Source: Imbricaverruca yamaguchii (Eukaryota > Arthropoda > Thecostraca > Neoverrucidae). From it: 64,000 bases of DNA. The DNA lies in contig JAOTOL010001555.1 in assembly GCA_034440575.1 (NCBI GenBank), forward strand, positions 186,001 through 250,000, given 5' to 3'. A model generated the notes under the pieces. The model worked only from the letters and a program-made list of their open reading frames with translations, did no database searches and was not told where the DNA came from. Made by a program: the position numbers and the translations under genes. This document shows positions 45,905 to 63,715 of the stretch, in pieces (within the stretch, counting starts at the first letter, position 1; each line of letters begins with the position of its first letter).

Positions 45905-47390
45905 AAAGCCCTTACCAGACATAACATAACCAAACCAAATCCCTTTGTATTCTGCAAGGATGTAAGATGTGCATATGACTAGTCTCATGGTTGCCTTAAA
46001 GTTGAATACTTTCTAACCTTCAATCCCAGAATGAAATTGTTTAAGCATGTACAATTTTGAAGCTTTTATGTTCCTTAAAAATATAATTAGAACATTACAT
46101 CTGACACAGCCTAACTTAACCTAGCATGACATGTTTTTTAATAAAAAAAATAATGTTTTACTTGAGATAAAAATTTCCCACAAAATCACAAATTTCCAAA
46201 CATAAAACTAGAGCATTAAATAAACCCAATATAATGAGATGAAACCACTTTATTTGCTTCATGAAGCTCAAATTTGTGTATAACTTGCCATATAAAATTC
46301 AAATACAACAGCACCTGTAGTTTGACAAACCAAGTAATTTAGGTATATGTCTTGGCATTAATATGCATTGAACACTCATGCATTAGTGTACAACATTCAT
46401 GAATCAGTTATTTACCAGCATGCATCATAATCTGCATGGACTTGCAATGATTAAACAACAGATGTGGTTTCTGATATGAAAATAAAGAATGGTTTAAAGC
46501 AAAAATAAATGAAGTGGTAATGATTCTCCAATTCAAACAGACAGTCATTCAAAACTACAATTCAGGGAAAACATTTTAACAACAGAATTGTACATATTAA
46601 GCCCATAACCTTCAAGCTTACCACGAAAACCCATCCATGGGTAAATAGACATTGTTCTTTTTCAACTGGTGCCAGTTATCAACAAAAAAACACAATTTCC
46701 CATTGGAGATTATTGGCCTCAAAATCACCACATTTTCGAAAGCATGAACATCTAAAATAAATATTTGATCCTGTAATATCCACGGGCACAGCACGGTAGG
46801 AATAATTTTACATCAATGGGCTACCCGGGGCCGAGGCTACCGCCTTCATGTCGCGGTGACGCTAAACACAAACGTTACTCCCCAGCACAGGCTACTTGCG
46901 CAAAATAAAATGAACCAACTGCGCAATATTTGCCGTTTAAATACATTTTCCTTAGCAGATATTTTAGAACCCTTTCGTAAAATGATATGGTTTGTACCTG
47001 TGGTTTCATTCTTATAATATCAATGGAAATGAGCATAGTACCCATTACTCTATCGCTAAGAAATTACTTTGGACAAATGAACAAAACTATTTAGTTTTTT
47101 TTATCGAGTTATGCAAACGGTACTCGTATACCTTCCCAAAAAATTATTTCTCAACGCATGTTTGAGAGTTTTGTGGCATATGGTAGCGAAGTGATCTTCG
47201 GGTCGGCTGGATGCGTTGGTGTATTCTATGGAGTGAGTCATGTTGGTGATGTATTGCTGAATGGCTTTGATTTTAAAACAATTACTACGTAAACATTAAA
47301 TAAATACCGGAGACACGTTCACTTCATACCTTTGAAAGTAGTGCAATACACTTGATGTAAAGATGCGTATTGTACCTAACGCCACCTATG
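45905..47390. other. AT-rich, no gene recognised
   Basis: CpG-poor, AT-rich sequence. A small CpG patch at 46820-46900 could hold a minus-strand first exon for MRPL10 (an ATG at about 46854 on the minus strand), but the only donors there (GTAGCC) are weak. Confidence 0.3.
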
Positions 47391-47397
47391 TGCTAAA

Positions 47398-47602
47398 CCA
47401 TGAACCACTCTGCAGCTGCCGCCGCGATGTCAGCGTATATGGCGCGGGTTGTTGAGAGTGGTGGGGTGATAACACTAAACGGCAGCAGCGGGGACATGAG
47501 CGTGTTATTAGATTTCGCCGTTGTTTATGTGATCGAGGAGTGTTAATGGCTGTTGTTCTGTGTCCTCCAGCTAGCTTCTTAATGAAATAATAAAAGTCTG
47601 GT
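47398..47602 (+). promoter_or_regulatory. CpG-rich patch with possible 5' exon
   Basis: A local CpG and GC peak inside a CpG-poor block, with a 48-codon plus-strand frame starting ATGAACCACTCTGCAGCTGC and ending TAA before a consensus donor CTG/GTAAGT at about 47601. This is the look of a promoter with a first, mostly untranslated exon. It might serve the JARID2-like gene about 11 kb downstream or an unrelated transcript. The peptide matches nothing I know. Confidence 0.25.
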
Positions 47603-47604
47603 AA

Positions 47605-48700
47605 GTTTATTATCCATCAGTTGCCTAACCATTTAATGTTTCCTTGCATTGCTGTACCGTAGTACTTAAGTACATGCAGGTGGGTAGGTAGGTAAGTGGG
47701 AAGATTGGTTGCCTACCTAGGTATGCTAGGTAGGTAGTGAGCCTTATGATGCTGATCTGATTATGCAGCCCTCCATAATTGCCCTATTGCAACTAATTTG
47801 GAAGAATGCATTGGTTCACAATTCGTATACTTATGTGGCTGCAGGGAATTATTAACTTGAACTAGTTCCAAAACAGTTTTTTTCCATACCTAGGGATGTG
47901 TCCATGGGAGGTTAGTACTGTTATTTGAGATTTTGGATGGTTTGACCAGAATTGATCATTTGCGCCCATGTGTCCATGACTGGGAAGTGGCCACATACTG
48001 ATTAGAACAATATTCATGCACCAATTAAGATTTCAAAGCTTGCTTTTCTTTCAAGGATGGTTCAAATTAGGTGCTGCAAAGTGACTAGCTGTGTCTACAA
48101 TTTGTGACAAAGGTTTTGAGACATCACTGATCAGTATCATTTCAAAGTTGATAGTCATGAAGATGCATGCTTGTCATGAATATTAATACTAATTTAGTTA
48201 TCTCCCCATGATGACAGGAGCACAGTGTAAAATAATTGAGGATGTGACCTGAAAATTCACAGTTAATGGAATTGTGCTATTTCATCCTTGTCTTAGGTTT
48301 TTCAAGTTTGCCACATGATGTATGGGCAGTCATCATGCACACCACTGCTAAATACTGTAAAATGCATCTGACTGAAGTGAAAGTCATTCCGCTTTTTTAA
48401 TCCTTAAGTGGGGATCCTTTATTTTCTTCCAATCTCACTATTCCCAAACAACTTTTTTCTTCATCCACACAGCTAATGGTGAAGTAAATTTAGGACACTG
48501 CAGGAGCAAAGTCTGCATATTGCAAGCATATACAGAGAATGTATTGCATGGTTGCATGCTGCAGAGGTAGGTAAGCACCTCCTGCATAATGGAATGTTGC
48601 AAGAATATATATTGTTGACACTGAAGCTTATGGATGATGGTTTGCATATGACCTATACATGTTGGCTAATATAAAGCCTAATATACTTTGTGTTAGGCAA
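47605..48700. other. AT-rich, no gene recognised
   Basis: Contains a small GTAGGTAG-type repeat patch at 47675-47740. Otherwise unique-looking sequence 5' of the LINE. Confidence 0.4.
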
Positions 48701-48704
48701 AGTA

Positions 48705-51700
48705 TATGAGCATGTCCTTCAGGGAAACTAGGAAATGGGGTGGGGAGGGATGAAATTGCATTGCCAACTCAGGAATATTCCAATAGTGTCAGCCAAGGCA
48801 ATAGAACCTCAAAGTCTGCAAATAGGGACAGCAGCAACTCAAGGGGACAGAGTTATAGTTCATCTAGTGATAAAAGAACTCCTCAATATGAAAAAGCCAA
48901 AGGTGGTTATGGAGCATTTGTTAAGTGTATGATGTTTAATGCTCAGAGTATCCGTTCCAAATTTGATGAGTTCAAGTGTTATGTTGCTGAGGAGGAACCG
49001 GATTTTGTTTGCATTACGGAGGCATGGGTCAGTGAAGGATATTTTGGAGATAACTTACAGGACTATGAGATCCAGGGATACAATATGTTTTCGTGCAATA
49101 GGGGTCCAGCAATGAAAGGGGGTGGTGTAATGCTCTATGTGAATAGCTTATTCAGTTCTCAAAAAGTAGCAGGTGGGGATAAAAATGTGTCTGTGGAGTC
49201 CATTTGGCTTGATGTCACTGTGGGAAAAGGCAACAGCAATACTCTTAGGATAGGAGCTTTCTACCGATCAGGAACCCTGCCACATTCTCAGCAACTGGAG
49301 CTTGACAAGGTGATTTGTGAGGAAATCAGTAGAAACTTTAAGAGGAAGTGCCTTATTCTCGGTGACTTTAATCTAAAAGGTTATGAAAATGCTGGTATTG
49401 GCTCCCCATCATGCAAAATGTTCAGGAAATGCCTTGAAGAGGACCTGTTCTTACACCAGTTTGTATCGGAACCTACCAGGCATGGTTCATTCTTGGACCT
49501 TGTATTCTCGGATTTAGGTGACTTGGTTCAAGACTTGACTGTAGGCGAAACTCTGGGAAAAAGTGACCATAACATAGTTAGATTCAAGGCACATGTAGGG
49601 GAAACTATCAAGGATAATTTGGTAAAGGTTCCAAATTTCAACAAAGCAGACTTTAACGGCATGAGAGCGGCTTTAAGTGCCATCAGATGGGAAGAAGAAT
49701 TCTCCAATTTAAATGCCTGTGAAATGTGGGAAAAGTTCAAATCTTACTTAAAGGAAACTCAGATTAGACATGTCCCCCAAAAGCAAAGACGCAAAAGAAG
49801 GGTAGGAAAGCCAGCATGGCTTACACCAGACGTGATAAAAGCAATTAGGGCTAAGAAAACTGCATTTAGAGTTTTTAAAGAAGCCTCAAATGTCATTAAT
49901 CTAAAGGCGTATCGAAAAGCTAGAGACACTGTGAAGCAAAAAACCAGAGCAGCAAAGCGAGCAAAGGAACTGGATTTAGCTAGAAACTGTAATGGGGACA
50001 GTAAAAAGTTCTTTAGTTTCTACAAGCTGAGTAAAGTTTCTAACACAATTGGTCCACTGGAAGTAAACGGGACTACATTGGGTGAGGATAGTGAGATGGT
50101 TGAGGAGCTGAGCAAGCACTTCAAATCAGTGTTTACATTGGAAGATATGACCAATCTGCCGACCGTACACCATAGTTCAGATACATGGGATCTGACAAAT
50201 GATGTTGATTTCATTGGTAGTGATGTTGTTTACAATCATATCAGGAAAATAAAGCCAAATAAGGCAGCAGGACCTGATGATATTTATGCTAGGGTGTTGC
50301 GGGAAACTGAAAAGGAACTGGCATTTCCACTTAGTATAATATTTTGTAGATCAGTTTCACATAATGAAATTCCAACCGATTGGAAAACGGCAAATGTAGT
50401 TCCTATTTTCAAGAAAGGAGAAAGAGGGAAAGTTGAAAACTATAGGCCAATAAGTCTCACATCCCTAGTCTGCAAGGTACTCGAATCAATTATCAAGGAT
50501 AGAATAGTTAGTTGTCTGGAAGGTAGCAGATTGATTCAAGATACTCAACATGGATTTAGAAAAGGACGATCGTGTCTCACAAACCTCTTGGACTTTTTGA
50601 ACTTCGCCACAGAACAATTTGATCAGGGAAATCAGGTTGATGTAGCATATCTTGACTTTAGTAAGGCCTTTGACAAGGTACCCCATAAACGGTTAATGAT
50701 ACAGCTTCAGTCCCATGGTATTGCAGGTAGCATCTTAAAATGGATAGAGTTGTGGCTTTCAGATAGACAGCAAAGAGTGATGCTAAATGGTACAAAGTCA
50801 TCATGGCAAAATGTTCTTAGTGGAGTCCCCCAGGGGTCAGTACTAGGGCCATTACTGTTCATTATATTTGTAAATGACATTGAAAGTGGCCTAAGCAGTA
50901 AAGTTTTGAAATTTGCAGATGATTTGAAGGTCTTTAGGGCAATAACAGGTCAGGATGAGCATATCTCGCTGCAAAAAGACTTAGACGAACTTGTGAAGTG
51001 GTCCGAAGAATGGCAAATGAAATTTAACTTTGATAAGTGCAAAATCATGCATGTAGGTAAGCAGCATATGAAGGCTCCATACTTGATGGGTGGCCAAGTG
51101 CTATCAGTGACTCAACAGGAGAAGGATTTAGGTGTTATTCTAAACACAAAATTGGGGGCATCAGAACAGACCAAGGAAGCCAGGAAGAAGGCACTGAGAA
51201 TGCTCGGGGCAATAAATAGGAATGTATCATACAGAAGTGAGGAAGTGATCAGGAAGCTTTACTGTGCATACGTCAGGCCACATTTGGAATACTGCATCCA
51301 AGCTTGGTCTCCTAGGTATGAAAAAGATTGTTGGCTTTTAGAGAGAGTACAAAAGAGGGCTACAAAAATGGTTAATGGCATAAGCAACCTGGCATATGAG
51401 GAAAGATTGAAGAAATTGAATATGTTTTCACTTAGATATAGAAGGCTGAGAGGAGATCTCATCGAGGTCTTTAAATTTGTCAATGGTCTGGAGAGGGGAT
51501 ACCTTGGGGAAATGTTTGAATTTAACAGAAATGATGCAATTAGAGGTCATAAATTCAAAATTAAAATTAACCACAGCAGAACAAGGTTAAGGCAAACTTT
51601 CTTCACCAACAGGGTAGTGGAACACTGGAACCAGCTGCCAGAAAACATCGTCAGTAGCAGAACATTGAACATCTTTAAAAACAGCATAGACAATCATTAT

Positions 51701-51920
51701 AAGAATAGAGGGCTTGCTTTTCAGTATTACAGGGAGGGCTGATTGGCAGATTTGGTGGGCAACTGGTTCAGTGTACAGAGTGCAACCAAGAAGGGCCCTT
51801 GTGGCTCAGAGTTGCACTGATCTTTTATGTCTTTATGTCTTTTATGTCTTTATGCCTATGAATCCTATGTAATACATTTTGCACCTATTTGTGTACAGCC
51901 CAAAAATAAATAAAAGAATC
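48705..51920 (+). mobile_element. CR1-like non-LTR retrotransposon (LINE), probably 5'-truncated
   Basis: A single long frame with endonuclease and reverse transcriptase is followed by a 3' UTR of about 175 bp. The UTR carries tandem TTTATGTC-type octamers (about 51823-51855) and ends near AATAAATAAAAG. Short 3' tandem octamers in place of poly(A) are typical of the CR1/L2 group. No ORF1 lies upstream and the frame is open only back to a TGA at 48707, so the insertion was probably truncated at its 5' end. No target-site duplication was recognised. Confidence 0.85.
48740..51742 (+). CDS. LINE ORF2: endonuclease plus reverse transcriptase
   Basis: About 1000 codons without a stop. Residues 61-285 are an APE-type endonuclease: FNAQS (Asn67), ITEAW (Glu94), FYRSG (Tyr175), LILGDFN (Asp209, Asn211) and KSDHN (Asp276, His277). 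Residues 350-470 are a basic linker. Residues 500-790 are the reverse transcriptase: KAAGPDDI, PIFKKGERGKVENYRPISL, HGFRKGRSC, YLDFSKAFDKVPH (Asp639), SGVPQGSVLGPLLF and the catalytic box FADD (725-728). Residues 800-1000 form the C-terminal part with YVRPHLEYCIQAWSP and HWNQLPE. The protein nicks target DNA and copies its RNA there. All key residues are present. The frame has no ATG before residue 64 (48929), so the native N-terminus is probably lost or lies upstream. Confidence 0.93.
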   Translation: MGRDEIALPTQEYSNSVSQGNRTSKSANRDSSNSRGQSYSSSSDKRTPQYEKAKGGYGAFVKCMMFNAQSIRSKFDEFKCYVAEEEPDFVCITEAWVSEGYFGDNLQDYEIQGYNMFSCNRGPAMKGGGVMLYVNSLFSSQKVAGGDKNVSVESIWLDVTVGKGNSNTLRIGAFYRSGTLPHSQQLELDKVICEEISRNFKRKCLILGDFNLKGYENAGIGSPSCKMFRKCLEEDLFLHQFVSEPTRHGSFLDLVFSDLGDLVQDLTVGETLGKSDHNIVRFKAHVGETIKDNLVKVPNFNKADFNGMRAALSAIRWEEEFSNLNACEMWEKFKSYLKETQIRHVPQKQRRKRRVGKPAWLTPDVIKAIRAKKTAFRVFKEASNVINLKAYRKARDTVKQKTRAAKRAKELDLARNCNGDSKKFFSFYKLSKVSNTIGPLEVNGTTLGEDSEMVEELSKHFKSVFTLEDMTNLPTVHHSSDTWDLTNDVDFIGSDVVYNHIRKIKPNKAAGPDDIYARVLRETEKELAFPLSIIFCRSVSHNEIPTDWKTANVVPIFKKGERGKVENYRPISLTSLVCKVLESIIKDRIVSCLEGSRLIQDTQHGFRKGRSCLTNLLDFLNFATEQFDQGNQVDVAYLDFSKAFDKVPHKRLMIQLQSHGIAGSILKWIELWLSDRQQRVMLNGTKSSWQNVLSGVPQGSVLGPLLFIIFVNDIESGLSSKVLKFADDLKVFRAITGQDEHISLQKDLDELVKWSEEWQMKFNFDKCKIMHVGKQHMKAPYLMGGQVLSVTQQEKDLGVILNTKLGASEQTKEARKKALRMLGAINRNVSYRSEEVIRKLYCAYVRPHLEYCIQAWSPRYEKDCWLLERVQKRATKMVNGISNLAYEERLKKLNMFSLRYRRLRGDLIEVFKFVNGLERGYLGEMFEFNRNDAIRGHKFKIKINHSRTRLRQTFFTNRVVEHWNQLPENIVSSRTLNIFKNSIDNHYKNRGLAFQYYREG

Positions 51921-51924
51921 CATC

Positions 51925-54900
51925 AGCAGTTTCAAAAGGTGGTAGTGCACACCATACATATGGTATGCAATCCCACAAGTTAAGCATCACACACAAGACC
52001 TCTGATGAACTATTCATGAAATAAGCCGGAATATACCACCTGAATGTGGAATTGACATCCCTCCCAGCAAAGTATTAACACCATACTTCATGATGAGTTC
52101 ATGAAGTTGCATAGATATTTATAACAGTATCCAGTTGATAGTATCATTCCTATACTCCCATATGCAGGGTTAAAATAATGGTTTTTCATTAGGTGTGAGA
52201 TGTCGAAACGGGCACAGAAGGATGTCGTAATTTGCCATGGAATTTGTGTCAATTAAAATGCTTTTGATGCCTTTTAGAATCAAATTTGAATCAATGTTGT
52301 AGGTACTTGCGACTGGAGCATTAACATGATACTTATAAATGAGATACTATTAGAAAGGGGACACGAAGACTTCATAAGAAAGCATCATGGAGTAGGATGT
52401 CGATACTTCTTGGAGAAGGATGTTGATTGAGCCTTCGGAAAGTGGTATTTCCCACCCTATTTAGTGAATAATTTATCACTGCCCATATGCCTTGCAGCCA
52501 GTAATGTAATGAGTATGCTGTTTAATTAAAGTTGTATTTGAGAAGAACTTATAAGTTATGTTAATCAACATTGATTTCATGGATAATTTTGACATCTTAC
52601 TGTATCATTTCAACATCTCACATCATGCAAAAAGCCATTATTTTAGCACTTCACAAGCCTGGGCCTTACCATTATGGTCCAAACAATGGGAGCTGCATTA
52701 GCTTGATCCTGGGGAGGTGCCAAAAATTGAGTGATGTTACTAATCATGTGATGTAGCATTATACAATTATATGAATATTTAATAGATATATATACTTAAG
52801 TGTATAATAGACATGCAATATCAAGGTGATAAGTGTTGTTCCAGAATTAATGTTGGCTCTGCCCCTCCCCCAAATATCAACTTTGAATATGGAACACTGT
52901 TGGGTGTGCCAAATCCATTTTGGTCTGTCTGTTGCCTTCTTGTATTTCCCCACCCCAATGATTTTCAAAAAGCAGCACCTGTGGTCTGATGTTATGTAGC
53001 ATTATATAGCTATATAAGAGGCAAAAATATAGCTACAGCATCACATAAATAATCAGAAGTGAATGCATTTTAACACAAAATACAATCCCAGGATCAAACA
53101 TGTGGTTGGTTTCCCCAAATTATTGAGTGTCATGTCACCCAAGGATGAGTTCCTCAAAAGTTTCATTAATAATTGCATTATGAGAGCCCATACTTGACCA
53201 TGCTAAGCTGACAGACATGGCATCCAGAAGTCATGTGTTGTGGCAATGATTCAGGGTTGCACTAGAAACATGGATTAATCCTGCACATTTACCCCTGCTG
53301 AGGGTGCCAGCATGCTCACTACATTGGTGTTTAGGCTGGGTTTGACAACATTCTTACACACACATACACACACATGCATGCATACTACTAAGCATTCATT
53401 TTCTGTGGTAATGTGTGCTATGGTGAAATTATTATTTACTTAGCAGTCTGTAATGAATGACACACCATTGTTGTGTTAGTTTGACAGTGAAACACATGCA
53501 TTTGTAAACTAGTAATATAATAATGTAAATTTCTGTAGAATACCACCAAACTGAGCATATGAGATTTGTCTTTGTATCCCAGTTTGCATACAGTGTTCAT
53601 GAAGGGAAGTTTATGAAGAACAATATCTGCATATATTTGAATTTTGATGACTACACATGTAGATATTTTATAATGCTACATTACATCATCACAATTTTAT
53701 TTCATATTATATCAATTAATGAAAGAAATACTGATATTTTCTAGGCATTGTAGACTGTCAAATGCTCCATCAGCATTGAGCTGGTGCTATCTATGCTTAC
53801 TATGAAATACTTAAGTTTCCAAATCATAGACTCAAATTAAATCACATCAAATCAATTGAATCAAGACTTATGGTATATTAGAAATATGAACAAGACAAGA
53901 CATATGGAGAAGTCATATGTATGCATATTATATATCTATGTAATTATATAATGGTACATGGCATCAGACAAAAGGTGTGGATTTATGGAAATATATTTTG
54001 TGGGGAGAAGAAATGTATGAAGGCAATTGGTAGGCCCAAATAGACTGAGGGCACACTCCATATGGTCCAACATTGAGGGACACTTGCCCCTCAATAGTAT
54101 GCAAAACAACACCCTTGTATCAGGCTATCAGTGACATCACTCAATAGCTGGCAGTGACTTAGGATCCAGTTCATGCAACTTCCATTGTTTGCAACTGAAA
54201 GGTAAAACCCAGAATCTCACATGTATGGTGTACAGCATGCAAGGTTGCATGCCATATATTTGGTGTATAACCTCTGGAGTTATGCATACTATGCATGGTG
54301 TGTAGCCACAGTCATTGTAAAGACCACTCAGGACTTTTCCCAATCATGTGGCACACTCGCAAAGAAGAGTGGGTGGTACTATTAGCTGTGGTTGTGCATG
54401 AAGTGTGTTTAGAGTCACCCAATAAATAAACAAGCCATTGCAAAAACTAGTGGGATCATTGCTTATATATCACTGAAACATACAGTCATCAAGAGCCAAG
54501 GCTTAGTATTAGCCAAACAATGGGTCATATGTGTTATAAATAAATGGAAGATAAGATAAAAGGAGAAAAGGGATACTGAAACACCATAATGGTGACTAAT
54601 GTCCTAATGGAACTAGCCTAGCCTAACCTAACCTAATCTAATGTGAAGAATGTAACTAACTATGATGCCACTTATATTTTCAAAGTTTTAAGGAAACTAA
54701 CATGCCAATGTGCACTAATTGATGCATTTTAATGAAACCCCATTGAATTATCTTGGCCAGTCTCATCAACATCACATACCTACCCAAAGAATGATGTAAA
54801 ATCCACTGTCATGTGCACTAGCCACCATCAGAATTCCATACTTATAAATATGATCTAAGATGCCTACTATCATCAATCCCATGCCATTATTGGGCTTTGA

Positions 54901-56260
54901 GGTATTTGTAAAACAAGTTCTATCCCCACACATTTTATGCCCACAAAGAAAGTAAAGTGGTTAGGTTTGGGTTAGGTTTGGTCAAGTTTTTCATTTGGAA
55001 CATTGAATTTGTGTGAAGGCAAATAAATTGGTTGTCTTCAAAAGCCTGTTGGGTTGGGTTAGGTTTTTTAAATTAGGAAAATTTAAAAGGAATATGTTTG
55101 GACATATTCTCAATTTTGGAAAAATTATTTCTTCTTAAAAGATAAGTTAGGTTATGTTATGTGCATCTTGTTTTTAGCATTTTCTTTTGCTGTATTACCT
55201 AACTCCAAGCTCATTTTCTTGGTTTTATTTTGCTTGTGAGCTGAAAAGGAATCATTTGCATAGAAAATGAGCTGTCACAATCCAAGAATCGCAACATTCA
55301 TGACACCTTACAGCACAAATTCATCAACACCACTCTATACACCCCAATCCCCATCCCTGTGTTGCACAACTTCAGATTGGAACATAAGATTTTGGACCTT
55401 GTGGATTTGTTCACCCTGCTTTGTAATGCATTCAATGAGGAGCTCTCCACTACGTGCACAGACAGCATATTGCATTGGTTAACCACCTTTTTGCTGAAAA
55501 CTGGTGGAAATTTAGCTGTCCTTAACATATTAACCTGTCAAAATTGAATGACTCCTATATGATGTCCTAATTAGAAGAACATCACTCAAATGTATATCAT
55601 CTAATACTTTTAATATATTAAGAATCTCAATCACCACCCCTTTATCTCCTATGTGTGAGTGAGTACATTTCAAATACCATATTAAAAATGTAGCAGTCCA
55701 TTGACAAGCCTCGTAGCTTTGTGCTGTACTGTTGCTAGCATGCCTATATGTCTCTTAGTAATGGCTGTATGCTGATTCAAAATATTCCATGTTAGGTTGT
55801 ATATAGGCAAAGCATCTTTGTAGCATCATCACTATTATATTTCACATTCACATTGGTGATTCCTGACATTATAATTACTCTGTTTCCAGCTGAGTTATGT
55901 AGTATATTTAAGTTGATTCTGAACTAACATATTTCTTTCGCTCTTCGGTGACATCCAGTTCAATACCTCACATCATATATCCCAGTGATAAGGATCTGTC
56001 ATACCACTGTGGAAGTTCCACAGTTACCACTGTGGAACATTCACCACTGCAAGTTTTTCTAACACTGCAAACTAGTGAAATTATGCTAGCTGGCCTGTAA
56101 TTTGCCACAGTTTCTATTGCCCTTTTTGAACATTGGTGATACAGTTACATTACAATAGGCTGCACTTGCATGACATTTACACTACAGTTACACCACAGAA
56201 TATGTTCCAAGCACTGTGGCAGTAGCTGGGTGTGAGTAATAATGCACAAGGAGCCACATA
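51925..56260. other. AT-rich intergenic or intronic block, no gene recognised
   Basis: CpG-poor, AT-rich sequence with short frames only. It includes a short interstitial telomere-like run (CCTAACCTAACCTAAT near 54622) and GGTTAGGTT patches at 54960-55070, matching the TTAGG arthropod repeat. No exon similar to the JARID2 N-terminus was recognised. Confidence 0.45.
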
Positions 56261-56267
56261 ATTTTTC

Positions 56268-56470
56268 ACAAGGAGCCGCCCCAGTAGCACAGTCGGTTAG
56301 AGCACTGGCCTGCACTGGTCTCCCTTGTCCTGACAACACAGGGTTCGAGTCACTTTGCATGCTCGCATTTAGCCCCCAGCCGGGAGTGTCAGTTGGCAGC
56401 TGGCCCGACAAGGCCGGGGACGAACTACCGGGCGGCCGTGTCGGTGCATTGACGGCACTTTAAACTTTCG
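56268..56470 (+). mobile_element. tRNA-derived SINE, type 3
   Basis: The head has TAGCACAGTCGGTTAGAGCA (A box region) and GGGTTCGAGTC (B box). The body has GCTCGCATTTAGCCCCC, GTTGGCAGCTGGCCCG and ACAAGGCCGGGG, and ends GCATTGACGGCACTTTAAA. It aligns with 27972-28118. Confidence 0.82.
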
Positions 56471-56479
56471 ATCTAAATT

Positions 56480-57955
56480 ATGCTGTTGAACTTGAACTCA
56501 TGGATCAGGTGGTGGGGCCAGGGTTCACACAACAAGCTCTGCTTAGCAATAGAATACTGGTTCCTAAAGCCACCCCAGCAACAACTCAGATTAAATTTAT
56601 ATTATAAAAATTCATAATGTAAATGATTGGGAAGAGCTTCTTTTTTTCAGTGGCATCACACTACAAGCTGCACATTTTGAAAATTGCACATGGTTGGTTC
56701 TTATAGCACTAGCAGCCAACTAGACCTAAATTACCCACTTGCTACCATGCACACTTTGATAAATTTGTAACCTTATAATGGTCAGTATTAATTTTGAATG
56801 CATTTTAGCAAAATAAACCTAGGCTAATATAGCTAATCTAGGCTAACATGGCATAGCCTGATCTAAGCTAAAACCAATAATACTGAAGGCACATCACAGC
56901 TGATGTCACAGATGGTGTCACCTGTAAAATGTACTCTAATATCACATTATTATGCTATATTCTGATGGAATGGCCAAAAGTCTACAATATCTGGAATGTT
57001 GTGATTAATTTGTTGGGTGGGACTGCACAGGGCAACCTGTGATTGGGCAGATGCACGGATGGTGGATATACGACCCTGTGATTAGGCAGCAAATGTTGAA
57101 CGAAGAAAAGCTTAGCCTGGCCTGACAAGTTGGAAAATAATCAAGGCCGTGCTGCATAAAACCTATAGATGTTGGATTGTGCAAGGGTGATGAATGTTGC
57201 ACCATGTAAAGCATACAGATGATGGCTTGCATAGAGAGCTTGCATCATACCTGTGTTCTTTCCACTGTCATCTTGGCAAATGTTGGTGCAATGTACCTGG
57301 AGTTTGCAGCATTTCACACTAGAGACCTAGAGCAGCTTTCCACTCTAGCCGGTGCCAAATTGTATTCCTGAGTTGTAGTTGGCATCAATTGTGACCAAGG
57401 GGCGGCCAGGACTAGTACACAATTTTGGGTATGGGTACTACTGTTGTTGTAGAGCATCATTTGCACATTAAATGCTGTCTTTATATCCAGTACCCTAAGC
57501 AATATTAATACCAGCTCCTCAAAATCATCAGTCATCATGTCATTCTCTTTGGATGATAGACCAACAAATATAGGATATGTGTGTGTATGCTACCTAACAT
57601 GCACACAACACATTTCGTGGCCTCCTTTGAATCAGTGGATGCTACATAATCAGTAGTAATTAATGCACCACTAAGCCCAAACAATCAATCAATTAATCAA
57701 TCCTTTCGATCGGATTCGGTGTCCTGTCCAGCTGGACTGGCCGACGCCCGATCATACGGCCAATTCCATCACCTTTGACCTGCCCCAGATAGTCACCAGG
57801 TAATAGAAAGTCTACCGTCAGCTGTCATTGGATTACATTCTCGGTACGCTGCTCGTTACATCTGGCCGGGTGGATGGGTATTGCGTTTCTCTCATTTGCT
57901 GGCATTCGCCAGGTTTTCATTATTAGCAGTGGGCACAAACTGAATTATTAATGCA
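56480..57955. other. No gene recognised
   Basis: AT-rich, then mixed sequence from about 57700. Nothing supported. Confidence 0.4.
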
Positions 57956-57961
57956 TTGCTG

Positions 57962-58127
57962 TGGTTGGTTGGTTATTGGTTCTATGACACATCGACCGTT
58001 GAGTCATGTTGCGCCGCCAATCTCTCACGCCGATTGGTCGCGGACGAATATTAACGACAGGTGAGACTTGAACCCACAACCTTCTCGATTGTGAGATGAG
58101 CAACTTACCCCTAGGCTACTCGTCCCC
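57962..58127 (-). mobile_element. tRNA-derived SINE, type 1, minus strand
   Basis: Read on the minus strand: GAGTAGCCTAGGGG (A-box-like), GGGTTCAAGTCTC (B box), GCGACCAATCGGCGTGAGAG, ATTGGCGGCGC, and tail TAGAACCAATAACCAACC. It matches the copy at 38383-38555. It lies about 300 bp upstream of the first JARID2-like exon. Confidence 0.82.
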
Positions 58128-58443: not shown

Positions 58444-58766
58444 ACGCGCAATGCCGCGCTCCAAGCGTGACGCGGTGACGGGCCGGGCGCCGACCGTACC
58501 GTCGCCAGAGTCACCGATGCTCAAGAAGCGCAAGGTGTTCGCGCAGCGCAAGTTCGCGCAGGGCGCGGCGATGCCCTTCTCGTGCTCTGCGCCGCCGTCC
58601 CCTCCGCCGCCCCCGCCGCCGCCGCCGCCCCCGCCCCCACCACCGCCCCCGCCGGCGTCTGCCTGTCGGGCGGCAGCGGCAGCGGCGGCCGTGGCCGTGT
58701 CGACACCGCTGGCCGACGGACCGCTGCCCAAAACGGAGGACTTCATCACCTTCCTCTGCTTCAGAG
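58444..58766 (+). CDS. JARID2: JARID2-like exon 1 of those seen
   Basis: An acceptor CCGCCACAG/ACGCGC at 58443, preceded by a pyrimidine-rich tract, fits an internal exon; the first ATG is 58451 and an in-frame TAA lies about 40 bp upstream. The donor is CAGAG/GTATGG, phase 1. It encodes the PRC2-substrate-like AQRKF motif (Lys codon 58550-58552), poly-Pro (about 58596-58655), an Ala run and KTEDFITFLCFR. Confidence 0.82.
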
Positions 58767-61700
58767 GTATGGCTAGTTCGCGGCACTGCGCACGGTACTG
58801 CTCTCAAATGTTGTACTGAAATGTCATCTCGGAAATGTTGTCTTTCGTTTAATCGCTGGCATTGAGATGGATGCTGAATTATGAATTTCGAGTAGTCAGG
58901 TATACATGTATATGCATATTAAGTATGCTGCTTACGTTCGATTAAGGTGTAGCCTCTTTTATCATCTATTAAAGAACATTTTCGAAGCATCCATTGAGAG
59001 AACATGTGTTCAGTATGTTTCATAAATAATGAGCTGATGATCTGCATTACCATACTAGGAGGGAGGTTAGTCATCATCCGCTGTTATTTTTTGTTCAATG
59101 TGCTATATTTTTGCAGCACACAAACAAGATGCGTTTTTTGTTTATTTGCTGGTTCATAATAATTAGCCATCAATAAATTCAACACAGCGTTTTATGAAAC
59201 ATCAAATTGCTACAATACTTTAGATAACTGCTAAGCTATAGAAATACATATTTGATGTTAATACATGTATGCTGAATGAGGAAATGTGTTCTCTATTATA
59301 GGTTTCCGGTGGTTACCTGGTTGTGTTCAACATGACGCATAGTTGAAATAACCAGCTAGCCAATTTCATGAAGTATCCTATTTCTGTTCGGGGGAGAGGG
59401 CAGACTTTATAGGCCTGATATCTCCCACAGTTCTGCCACCGCCTGAACACCGGCTTTGCAAGAGTTTTCTTCGACCTTAAATCGCATCATTTGTGCTCCT
59501 GACAATATGCATGTACACGGCCTAAAGCTCAACATTTATCCAAACCCCATTTGATTCCGTGGAGTGTAACGATTAATTTTGACGCCGTCGTAGTCCGATC
59601 TGACACGTCATAATGGCGCCCAACGACTGACTTCGGTACGAGTCAGTCACACCGTTACCACCTGTGTGTCGCCGTCAGCACGAGTCAGTCACACCGTTAC
59701 CACCTGTGTCGCCGTCAGCACGAGTCAGTCGAACCGTTGCCACCTGTGTCGCCGTCAGCACGAGTCAGTCACACCGTTACCACCTGTGTGTCGCCGTCAG
59801 CACGAGTCAGTCACACCGTTGCCACCTGTGTCGCCGTCAGCACGAGTCAGTCACACCGTTACAACCTGTGTCGCCGTCAGCACGAGTCAGTCACACCGTT
59901 ACCACCTGTGTGTCGCCGTCAGCACGAGTCAGTCACACCGTTACCGGCTGTGTTTCGCCGTCAGCACGAGTCAGTCACACCATTACCACATGCGTCGCTG
60001 TCAGCACGAGTCAGTCACACCGTCACCACCTGTGTGTCGCCGTCAGGCACGAGCCACTTGCCAGCACATCTGGAGAAGTTTAATCACCCGACCGTGTACC
60101 CTCTGGTGGCAAACGAGGACGTGAAGGAGCGCCTGTCACCGACCCCTCCTGTACCGGACACTCCGACACGCAAGGTGAGGCTGTGCCGACCGTGGCTATG
60201 CTGCTGTTATGATGCACGTACACTTGCATTTTGGTTTTGGTTTTAAATCGCTTCGTTGGTTTTCTGTGTGATGCGATGGATGAACCTTATCGCATTGATT
60301 TAATGAGCGACTGCTCCAGCCAGTCAAAATCGGCTGTTTTATGCTGGCGTTTGGCTTGATGCACATCAGAAGATGTTCATCGGTTATATCCATATACATG
60401 CGAGCCGTTGTGACATTATAGGATACTCGGAAGTTTTCAATGACTTCATTGCTAGCAGCATCTGGAGCGTCAGTGGCAGCAGTGGCGTGTGACGTAGTGG
60501 TCTCTTACTGTAGGAGCTGAAGGTTGCCAGCTGTCTGGGACAGAACGGTCACGCCAAGATGTCCGCCGCAAAGCCGATGTTCCAGAAGCATAAGGGTGAG
60601 AGAGCCGACCGAAACCACCTGCCTCCCATGGGCGCCAAACGACGCTAGTAGTAGACATTAGGGGCCAGATTAAACTGTGATACTGTCGTGTCGCCACAGG
60701 GTGTCCGAATTCGCTCAGTTAGGCGTCAGGTTGTAAATATAGCACATCTCCCCGGAGAATGTGTGCTATGCAATGGAAGTAGAACTGCATAGGATCTAAT
60801 TCCACTTTTAGTGACCATGTTCCTCAGGATTTGAATGCTATCTCAATGTGGAACTGTATTTATATCAATGCCTCCACGCCTAAACTCGCTAACTTTGACA
60901 TACTGTGCCACCACGTGTAACACCCGTGTAATTTCACCAAACATATGCTCACATTTGACCCATTTTCCACGTCAAAGGAGGCATTCCCACCTCTGACGCC
61001 ATGCCCCGGGCTTTGGTTTTCTCAGCCTTTACCATGGGTGGTATTGTGGTATTTTTGCTCTCCCTGACTTCATCCCTGATGTGTGCTCACCACAACAGGG
61101 GACTGACGAATTTCTGATTTCCACACCACAGTGGAAATGGTGAAGGGTAATATTTCCAACCTGATCTCTTACCTGCATGATCTCCAGTTGAGCGTAGTCT
61201 TTCCTTTACACGCAACCGTCACATGTGCGACCTCATCACTGGCCTTTATGACCTCGGTCCACAAGCGCAACCACCGTGACCCAATCTCTGACTTGTACGA
61301 CCTCCGTTCCGGTCCGACCTTTGTATCTGACACCAGGTTTGCGACCACGTGCCTGACCTGTGTGACCTCTGTACGTTTCGGCGACCTGCACGTGACGCTG
61401 ACCCCCATGGCCTGGCAGTGTTGAGGAGCCGGCTGCGCGGCGGCTCGGTGCCGGTCGTACGAGCTGACAAGGGCGGAGCGGCCGGCCCCGCCCTGAAGCG
61501 TGCCCAGGTGGTCCTGCGCAAGCTCTCACACTCCAGCCTGATCGCCAAAAAGAAGTCGCAGTCGGCGAAGCTGCGCGCACAAAAGGTCGTCGATAAGAAG
61601 TCGCGCATGCTGCAGAGGTACGGAACATTGTTGGATGTGTGCTTTAAAATCCTGGATATGGGCAGAAGTCTGAGTGTTTCGATTTGGAGATAATATTTTT

Positions 61701-63465
61701 GTGTTCCGTTTCTGACATGAATGTTTCTGACGTGACCCTTTTTGTACTTTCTAGTCCGTTCCGGGGATTTTTAACATACAACAATAAGATGGCAGTCATT
61801 TCCCAAAACATCTCCATCCATGTTCTGGTGAAAGAAGGAATGGACAATTTTTCGTAGAGCATAACGTTTTTGATGGCGAATATCTAGGACGTCATGTTTC
61901 CCACCCTGGACAAGGTCATGTTTCCTACCCTGGTAAGCAACAGTGCCTGACCATGGGTAAGTGATATGTCTGACCCTGGTTAGCGGCGCACGAGGTGGAA
62001 CTTTCACCCGTTGCCCCTCCGATGGATCTCCTCCCACCGACACCACGACTTTGCGCGTCCGGCCGCGCCACTAGTTGGTCCCACGCATTCCAGCATCTTG
62101 TATGCGTGCTTGCGAGACTGGTACTTGCGCAATTGAGATACTGCTACTTACGTACTTGCTACACCGGTATTTGTATGCTTGTTGCACCGGTATTTGCATA
62201 CTTGCTACATCGGTATTTGCATACTTGCGACACTGGTACATGGGTACTCGCTACACCGGTGCTTGTGTGCTTGCGATATGCGTGCCTATTGGGTATTACG
62301 ATAACACCTTGGTCCGACTGCTGGCTTGTAAATAGGATGTATCTTTGCAGTTGGACTCCGACATGGGGAGACAGGGCCTGGCACTATGTATCATGCCAGT
62401 AGAGTTGAGTCGAATTGACTGGCACTATGTATCGTGCCGTCTTCTCGATCGCGGTCTGTCAACATGCTTAGCTGATATGGACCTAGCCAGGCAGCTTGAA
62501 ATGTGGAGGGCAATGCGATCCATTTTTGGCGATATCCACGCGATTTTAATTTGTTGGCAATTTTGGCTCCTTGGTGATCACCCCTGCGTGCGATGGCAAT
62601 GTTTTAGCGACAAACTGTTGGTACTGTATTACTATATGATGATGTCACTGTATTTGATAGTGTTCGGATGCTGCCTGGTTTCATGTTATGCCTTTGTCTT
62701 TGTTTGCTAGACATATGCCTTATGCATTTGTCATTGTTTAGCCTCCTCTATCTTGACAATATGGTGCTCGCTATTGTAGTATTGCATCTAGAAACTATGT
62801 TAACCATGATCTGATGGTACGGCAATGTGTGTTGTCGATGTGTAGCACTACAACGCTTGATTTACTCGACTGCTACTCGCCAGGCTGGTGGTATCCAGCA
62901 GCCTACGTTACCCGGCTGCCGGTCCCGCCATCAAGCTGACCGCGCTCAAGCAGCAGCGGCCGTTCGCCAGACTGACTCGGGCGCAGATATCCCGCGGCGC
63001 TCGGCCGCGACCTCCCACCGATTCCACCAAACCGCGACCGCCCTCTGACTACACCAAACCACGACTTCCCTCCGATCCCACCCGGCCGCGACCGCCCTCC
63101 GACCTCACCGGGCCACGGTCTTCTACAGATCCTACCCGACCACGACCCTCCACAGATCCCACCCGACCTCGACCGTCTACCGACCCGGCCCGACCGCAGC
63201 CCTCCACAGATCCGGTCCGAGCGCGACCCTCGCCAGACCCGTGCCGGCCGAGCGGCGGCGCAGGCCCGGCGCGGCCGACGCGCACCTCGCCCCAGTCGGC
63301 CGTCGCGTCCCGTGCCGTCACCAAGGGCCAGGCGACCGTGGACGCGGCCGCGCGGGTCCGCCAGCGCGCTGCCAAGATGGCCATCGTTCGGCAGCTCAAG
63401 GCCAAGCTGGGCCGGCCGGCCACTCGCGCTCTGCCGCGTCAGCTGGCCACGCACGGCACCGGCAG
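58444..63465 (+). CDS. JARID2: JARID2-like Polycomb cofactor, N-terminal part, five exons (incomplete 3')
   Basis: JARID2 is a nuclear, catalytically inactive Jumonji protein that recruits and stimulates PRC2, the H3K27 methyltransferase. Exons are 58444(or ATG 58451)-58766, 60047-60174, 60514-60595, 61419-61617 and 62884-63465. Every joint is phase-compatible (1, 0, 1, 2) with GT..AG introns, giving about 435 residues from the 58451 ATG. The diagnostic blocks are KVFAQRKFAQG (residues 29-38) and KTEDFITFLCFRG joined to TSHLPAHL across the first intron; vertebrate JARID2 has the same two blocks in order. Between them lie a run of about 20 prolines and an alanine run. Exons 3-5 are basic and low complexity with little recognisable homology, so that part rests on splice phase and position. 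The ARID, JmjN/JmjC and zinc-finger regions would lie beyond 64000. Upstream N-terminal exons were not found. Confidence 0.8.
58775..59630. other. JARID2-like intron 1, unique part
   Basis: AT-rich intron sequence before the 40/42-bp repeat; nothing else recognised. Confidence 0.5.
59637..60046 (+). repeat. 40/42-bp minisatellite carrying copies of the exon 2 acceptor
   Basis: Each unit reads TGTGTCGCCGTCAGCACGAG then TCAGTCACACCGTTACCACC. The acceptor-like GTCAG occurs at 59674, 59714, 59754, 59796, 59836, 59876, 59918, 59960 and 60000; the true one is at 60042. About 16 nt of intron and about 7 nt of exon are shared with the real border. Confidence 0.93.
60047..60174 (+). CDS. JARID2: JARID2-like exon 2
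   Basis: 128 nt, acceptor CCGTCAG/GCACGAG, donor CGCAAG/GTGAGG. It completes the Gly codon and encodes TSHLPAHLEKFNHPTVYP and a Ser/Thr-Pro-rich stretch. Its acceptor is part of the 40/42-bp minisatellite that precedes it. Confidence 0.82.
60180..60510. other. JARID2-like intron 2
   Basis: Unique-looking intron; no repeat or RNA gene recognised. Confidence 0.5.
60514..60595 (+). CDS. JARID2: JARID2-like exon 3
   Basis: 82 nt, acceptor TTACTGTAG/GAGCTG, donor AAGG/GTGAGA. It encodes a basic 27-residue stretch ELKVASCLGQNGHAK.. without known motif. It is inferred from phase and splice sites. Confidence 0.65.
60600..61418. other. JARID2-like intron 3 with degenerate repeats
   Basis: At 61190-61410 loosely repeated TGACCTCTGTACG / GTGACCCAATCTCTGAC-like blocks lead up to the exon 4 acceptor. 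The rest is unique-looking. Confidence 0.5.
61419..61617 (+). CDS. JARID2: JARID2-like exon 4
   Basis: 199 nt, acceptor CCTGGCAG/TGTTG, donor CAGAG/GTACGG, phase 1 in and 2 out. It encodes a Lys/Arg-rich segment (LIAKKKSQSAKLRAQK, VVDKKSRMLQR) that could bind nucleic acid or serve as a nuclear signal. GC-rich third positions contrast with the introns. Confidence 0.72.
61620..62095. other. JARID2-like intron 4, first part
   Basis: Short TCATGTTTCC(C/T)ACCCTGG repeats at 61892-61945; otherwise unique-looking. Confidence 0.45.
62100..62290. repeat. 23-bp minisatellite in JARID2-like intron 4
   Basis: Unit CTTGCTACACCGGTATTTGT plus 3 bases, about 6-7 copies with substitutions. Confidence 0.88.
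62295..62883. other. JARID2-like intron 4, last part
   Basis: GGCACTATGTATCRTGCC occurs twice (about 62380 and 62420). No exon recognised. Confidence 0.45.
62884..63465 (+). CDS. JARID2: JARID2-like exon 5 with a coding 27-bp repeat
   Basis: 582 nt, acceptor CTCGCCAG/GCTGG (two further in-phase CAG acceptors lie 15 and 18 nt downstream), donor GGCAG/GTACGT. It encodes SLRYPAAGPAIKL, nine copies of a 9-residue TDPTRPRPS-like repeat, then a basic region AKMAIVRQLKAKLGRPATR. The repeat is a minisatellite kept in frame. Confidence 0.72.
63008..63252 (+). repeat. 27-bp coding minisatellite in JARID2-like exon 5
   Basis: Nine 27-bp units of the type GACCCTCCACAGATCCCACC keep the reading frame and give a Thr-Asp-Pro-Thr-Arg-Pro-Arg-Pro-Ser-like repeat. 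Confidence 0.85.
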
Positions 63466-63499: not shown

Positions 63500-63715
63500 T
63501 GGCAGTGGTGTAGTGTGTGGATGGTGACTGCAGAAGTCCGACAGTGGTGTGGATGGTGACTGCAGAAGTCCGACAGTGGTGGATGGTGACTGCAGAAGTC
63601 TGGCAGTGGTGTGGATGGTGACTGCAGAAGTCCGACAGTGATGTGGATGATGACTGCAGAAGTCCGACAGTGGTGTGTATGGTGACTGCAGAAGTCCGAC
63701 AGTGGTGTGGTGTGT
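63500..63715. repeat. 32-bp minisatellite after JARID2-like exon 5
   Basis: Unit GGATGGTGACTGCAGAAGTC plus CGACAGTGGTGT; landmarks at 63521, 63553, 63583, 63615, 63647 and 63679. It starts about 35 bp past the donor. Confidence 0.95.

Follow-up and report, generated by a model that had tools for sequence, protein, structure and literature searches.

A minisatellite straddling the intron 1/exon 2 border of a barnacle JARID2 gene repeats the splice acceptor and probably arose as a chance mirage

In the barnacle Imbricaverruca yamaguchii, the border between intron 1 and exon 2 of a JARID2 gene is straddled by a minisatellite (positions 59637–60056, + strand, of the 64,000-nucleotide stretch of DNA that was analysed, hereafter the window) in which copies of the exon 2 acceptor precede the real one. 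We consider it probable (roughly 0.8) that this array is a mirage: a short duplication over the boundary was expanded, and splicing takes place mostly at the exon-proximal acceptor. Mirages, that is, minisatellites straddling an exon-intron boundary, have been described in lancelets (PMC3087553, PMC3902484).

The original prediction had assigned the gene to JARID2, and this identity was borne out. At least 19 exons were located in the window and the next 30 kb of the contig, and exons 1–19 chain in phase over 2,996 codons with zero stops. JARID2 membership was judged by two sets of features: the C-terminal part contains JmjN, ARID and JmjC in this order, and the N-terminal motifs AQRKFAQ and TEDFLTFLCLRG were both found. 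Among solved structures, the closest relatives are Protein Jumonji/JARID2 chains, at E about 1e-124. A protein search that scored 7,995 candidates, those sharing most words, gave 53 matches at E 1e-20 or better, with 36–55% identity over 27–99% of the query; the named relatives among these 53 are mostly arthropod. A Pfam search with the N-terminal part yielded no match.

The coding part of exon 1 (58451–58766; this and the following exons lie on the + strand) holds the AQRKFAQ and PKTEDFITFLCFR motifs. Its start is shared with relative P0001, which differs beyond FRG in the way that reading on into the intron would produce. Exon 2 (60047–60174) is defined by the phase chain, by its acceptor CAG/G at 60046/60047 and by a gapless junction alignment with Protein Jumonji chains, while exon 3 (60514–60595) and exon 4 (61419–61617) are defined by splice signals and phase. 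The start of exon 5 (62884–63465) is shared by relative P0002. This exon carries a coding repeat of its own at 63003–63241, with RPRPSTDPT-like units of 27 bp, and in P0002 another repeat occupies this position, which suggests that the exon 5 repeat turns over fast.

The exon 1–2 junction aligned gaplessly within PKTEDF(I/L)TFLC(F/L)RG..LP, and falls between residues 164/165 of the human chain 7kso_F. At this junction stick-insect relative P0003 reads FRGKQLLPPSLEFFN and is free of an insert. The transrepression domain of the region holding this stretch is reported to dock on SUZ12 ZnB-Zn (PMC7000746).

Alignment of the units upheld the two central predictions about the array, namely that acceptor copies lie upstream of the exon and that units are 40 or 42 bp long: nine GTCAG/CACGAG junctions precede the real GTCAG/GCACGAG. 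The array, delimited by TRF rows (59638–60053), unit alignment and gapped alignment, comprises ten 40/42-bp units and a short terminal exonic piece in exon 2. The two unit lengths differ by one TG, and the top-scoring TRF period is 122 (score 721), i.e. a 42+40+40 block. The first base after CAG lies at 59679, 59719, 59759, 59801, 59841, 59881, 59923, 59965 and 60005 in the copied junctions and at 60047 in the real one. Eight of the nine copies, each reading CAG/C, lie within 59679–60004 (+ strand; −1.64 to 0.15 bits in the acceptor model described below). The last intronic unit (60005–60046, + strand) opens with the ninth, an in-frame copy at 60005 that would add 14 residues, and ends with the CAG of the real acceptor. 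The 12 bases preceding the junction are exactly TGTCGCCGTCAG in seven of nine copies, the deviating copies being those that end at 59964 and 60004. All nine retain the splice signal CAG, and all nine carry the exonic CACGAG, with the border G missing relative to the exon.

That the array repeats the boundary itself, as predicted, is supported by the terminal copy, in which similarity to the inner copies runs through the junction. Their gapped alignment extends from −45, which is the edge of the supplied stretch, to +9, with a single extra G inserted at the border, and scores 93 against a shuffle maximum of 23, so that the units include the boundary. Two features nevertheless count against a mirage: an indel separates the terminal copy from the inner units precisely at the border, and the exonic similarity is short, being limited to CACGAG and a few more bases. 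When the array sequence was used to query the assembly (767 Mb in 1,430 contigs), only one near-identical locus was returned. The unit cores do have a stretch in common with arrays elsewhere in the genome, and the seed was thus not necessarily local.

Arrays occupy 28% of JARID2 intron sequence, and several others lie at or near splice sites. Beyond the window, intron 12 contains a 14 × 86-bp array (C1322:268297-269485, L007:8297-9485) that repeats CACCAG/GTGGTGAACGAACG, copying the acceptor and the first 14 coding bases. Here the similarity crosses the junction with a score of 118 (shuffle maximum 32), and the real exon encodes VVNERDRHV, aligned gaplessly to LVEEKDCHV. Use of any of the 13 copied acceptors would run into a stop. 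Scores of at least 4.4 bits were obtained for eleven of them, compared to 5.7 for the real acceptor; the two copies that lack the first exonic G reached 2.5 and 3.0 bits. The donor of intron 6, also beyond the window, is repeated in 3.6 copies of a 126-bp unit (C1322:253814-254272, L006:3814-4272) that carries the end of exon 6 together with the donor; each unit corresponds to 42 codons and the frame is open. Three candidate donors share identical 24 bases (..CAG/GTCAGTACC..), two of them being further exact copies, and the similarity again crosses the junction (score 125, shuffle maximum 34). Counted by their first intronic base, the candidate donors lie at C1322:253913, 254039, 254165 and 254273 (the last one assigned by eye), some 3.9–4.3 kb past the end of the window. 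We regard the intron 6 donor array as a better candidate than exon 2 for copy-number-dependent isoforms. The donors of introns 11 and 14 run directly into arrays, while the intron 8 donor and the intron 18 acceptor showed no similarity above shuffles to the nearest array. A further minisatellite lies 49 bp past the exon 5 donor (63466), at 63515–63710 (+ strand). Its degenerate unit starts 25 bp from the donor and excludes it; since the array similarity begins 25 bp inside the intron, a mirage at the exon 5 donor is unsupported.

We also examined three genes picked as recognisable or compact rather than for their arrays: GALNT, found in the following 200 kb of the contig, and CCT7 and CCT4, both taken from the 49 exon matches of a family search. 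In all three, the exons considered join in frame and match their own families. In CCT7, one donor is straddled by 23-bp units (L033:3329-3518; consensus CGGTCTCGAG/GTAAGGCGGTGGC), with the donor GT lost in one of the first inner copies, and the last acceptor is straddled by 52-bp units (L033:8825-9000), with a spliced protein that exceeds its best PDB match by one residue. For one acceptor of CCT7, two AGs were available and one was chosen. GALNT has three straddled sites, namely one donor (by 2 bp) and two acceptors, and at one of these acceptors the inner copies read CACCAA, so that the AG is lost. CCT4 has zero straddled sites. Since the same architecture occurs at intron 12 and in unrelated genes, no JARID2-specific purpose is needed to account for the exon 2 array. 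The family search also returned two loci with an identical order of four CCT exon matches and near-equal scores, C89:622-20885 and C1012:105687-117091, which differ in spacing (first gap about 13 kb versus 4 kb). These are either two haplotypes or recent duplicates, and could be used to test for variation in array length.

Tandem arrays make up 21% of the window (41 arrays in a hand-merged list) and are unevenly spread, with about 27% of positions 1–46000 and under 1% of 46001–58000 in the merged list. The window also contains, at 48710–51742, a LINE-like element whose uninterrupted open frame of 1,010 codons encodes endonuclease and reverse transcriptase domains; Rfam and ARAGORN searches gave no matches. 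Elsewhere in the assembly, COX1 lies beside a COX2-like frame at C996:270910-272247 (L012), on a contig that extends beyond position 270,000, which points either to mitochondrial DNA inserted into the nuclear genome or to a join made during assembly. Translated with the invertebrate mitochondrial code, this single COX1 match of the assembly shows 97% identity to Leucolepas longa, a stalked barnacle of the neolepadids, followed by further barnacles at 89–90%.

The tandem array at exon 2 as such goes beyond chance. When the arrays were circularly shifted, at least one of the window's nine splice sites fell inside an array in 72% of shifts, and for this reason the claim that arrays sit at splice sites needs a null. 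An initial null, which forbade overlap of arrays and exons, exaggerated the effect with very small P values. We rely instead on a seeding null that lets collapsed founding units straddle a junction, applied to 78 splice sites in four genes, a small sample in which GALNT and CCT4 are represented by part of the gene. By coordinates, eight of the 78 sites are straddled versus 4.4 expected (P = 0.056). Straddling is thus about equal to random seeding in a repeat-rich genome and not clearly above it, and among these 78 sites there is no sign that straddling arrays are purged. Proximity, in contrast, is enriched roughly twofold: 11 of the 78 sites have an array within 10 bp (5.5 expected, P 0.012), 15 within 20 bp (6.4 expected, P = 0.0003) and 20 within 50 bp (9.1 expected, 0/4000 simulations). 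Omitting the ambiguous intron 6 donor leaves 7/77 straddled sites against 4.3 (P 0.12) and 14 sites within 20 bp against 6.3 (P 0.0015).

The excess of nearby arrays would be expected if minisatellites of this genome were preferentially seeded at splice sites, by some process at exon borders that is tied to replication or transcription. We regard this as possible but doubtful, because the straddling count itself stays close to expectation and the excess weakens once JARID2 is left out (straddled 5/42 versus 2.9, P 0.15; within 10 bp 5/42 versus 3.6, P 0.28; within 20 bp 8/42 versus 4.3, P 0.04). CCT4 alone displays no excess. Ungapped 24-mers across junctions had two or more copies (19/24 matches or better) at 2/36 JARID2 sites, below the 6.3/36 at random intronic points, in a test that misses the exon 2 acceptor array owing to its one-base indel. 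A broader proposal, that about one junction in ten is minisatellite-straddled and that some arrays act as length-variable banks of alternative splice sites, including the exon 2 acceptor (+14/+82/+96) and the better-placed intron 6 donor (42-residue steps), seems to us unlikely.

It is also conceivable that the repeat is the older element: a dispersed minisatellite core would have landed or arisen in the intron, and the acceptor of exon 2 would then have become part of its last unit. Arrays on C1413 and C1141 share GTCACACCGT(T/C)AC-like cores at 67% identity, the matches at this identity (L002–L005) being other arrays with a common short core, as inspected for L002–L004. Furthermore, the similarity on the exon side is so short that an equally good match to the array is found for 7% of 10-mers drawn at random downstream. 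However, CACGAG stands in register after CAG and encodes Thr-Ser at the gaplessly aligned junction. For the intron 12 array, whose copied piece GTGGTGAACGAACG codes for VVNE plus the beginning of Arg and is matched by LVEEK in the protein alignment, the exon is clearly the source. We therefore consider an origin from a pre-existing repeat quite unlikely at exon 2.

As originally predicted, the copies at 60005, 59801 and 59759 are in phase with exon 2 and would add 14, 82 and 96 residues, respectively. The accompanying claim that this frame is open from 59737 was wrong: it is open from 59614, after a stop at 59611. All three forward frames are open throughout the array, and six of the nine copies meet a stop within exon 2, leaving three that are in frame and open. 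The open frame was rejected as a coding signal, since 27% of shuffled 40-mers also lack a stop triplet. Almost stop-free strands numbered 8/58 among 29 of the 32 listed window arrays of 100 bp or more.

We scored the acceptors with a small model trained on the other 17 acceptors of JARID2 alone. The real acceptor scored 1.85 bits, and the copies are 1.7–3.5 bits weaker. In the three copies that have the real site's tract, the entire 1.7-bit deficit comes from a C instead of G at +1; this base is G in 12 of the 17 other JARID2 acceptors and C in all nine copies. The model is weak, ranking the real acceptor first in only 9 of 18 introns, and in intron 1 an AG at 59431 outscores the real acceptor.

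That the spliceosome uses the copies at 60005, 59801 or 59759 appreciably, so that repeat number sets isoforms with 14-, 82- or 96-residue inserts beside the SUZ12-binding motif, is very unlikely: each unit does have its own pyrimidine-rich stretch and CAG, three copies are open and in frame, and the human literature reports one retained unit of the 25-bp ABCA7 VNTR at about 2% (PMC5954066) and repeat units of IFI6 serving as alternative donors (PMC4526556, citing Turri 1995), but the copies are weaker with their C at +1, six of nine lead to a stop, the insertion point lies inside a conserved motif, and the lancelet mirages are reported without disturbance of splicing (PMC3087553, PMC3902484).

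Under the mirage reading that we favour, the array would have been started by a chance tandem duplication across the splice site in a minisatellite-rich genome, each unit carrying about 30 bp of the intron end, the CAG and about 6–10 bp of exon. The 40/42-bp units and the 122-bp higher-order pattern suggest expansion by slippage or unequal exchange, and the best TRF period of 122 bp points to growth partly via multi-unit blocks. Either the founder lost the G after CAG or the exon gained one; this single border G may both weaken the copies and keep the real frame. The spliceosome would then mostly stay with the acceptor at 60047, which alone has G at +1, and most copies would remain silent or yield minor products, of which two thirds would contain premature stops. 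The array would be tolerated because splicing keeps to the exon-proximal acceptor.

In the literature examined, boundary-spanning minisatellites have so far been a lancelet curiosity with two human cases. None was found in arthropods, as judged by titles and abstract openings, which is no proof of absence. With several arrays in a single barnacle gene and further ones in two of the three other genes, this animal may be suited to asking how one of several near-identical adjacent sites is selected in splicing, and whether tandem junction duplication gives rise to new introns. Should any of the arrays be used, isoforms of a chromatin regulator would depend on copy number; should none be, the genome would illustrate how effectively the splicing machinery passes over decoys.

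Like the barnacle array, the lancelet mirages are tandem duplications of the boundary, on the 5′ or the 3′ side there, with splice signals kept in many units. Splicing appears normal for the mirages of the globins BflGb6 and BflGb9 and of Adh3 (PMC3087553), and likewise for those of TnC and PGBD5 (PMC3902484). Unlike these cases, the array described here lies in a barnacle, in a Polycomb cofactor gene and as one of several arrays in the same gene; length polymorphism and undisturbed splicing are properties reported for the lancelet mirages. The VNTR in intron 18 of human ABCA7 is similar in that its units start with a splice donor beside the exon and one unit is retained in mRNA, but it lies on the donor side, has a 25-bp unit and is reportedly tied to exon skipping and Alzheimer risk (PMC5954066). 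The minisatellite of human IFI6 (6-16) is of a similar type, its units supplying alternative splice sites that give rise to isoforms, according to one report (PMC4526556). It too lies on the donor side, and its use is reported, whereas the exon 2 array lies on the acceptor side with candidate sites read from the genomic DNA; the closer parallel to IFI6 is the donor array of JARID2 intron 6. By analogy, the precedents would allow either outcome: lancelet mirages leave splicing regular, and ABCA7 and IFI6 units enter the mRNA.
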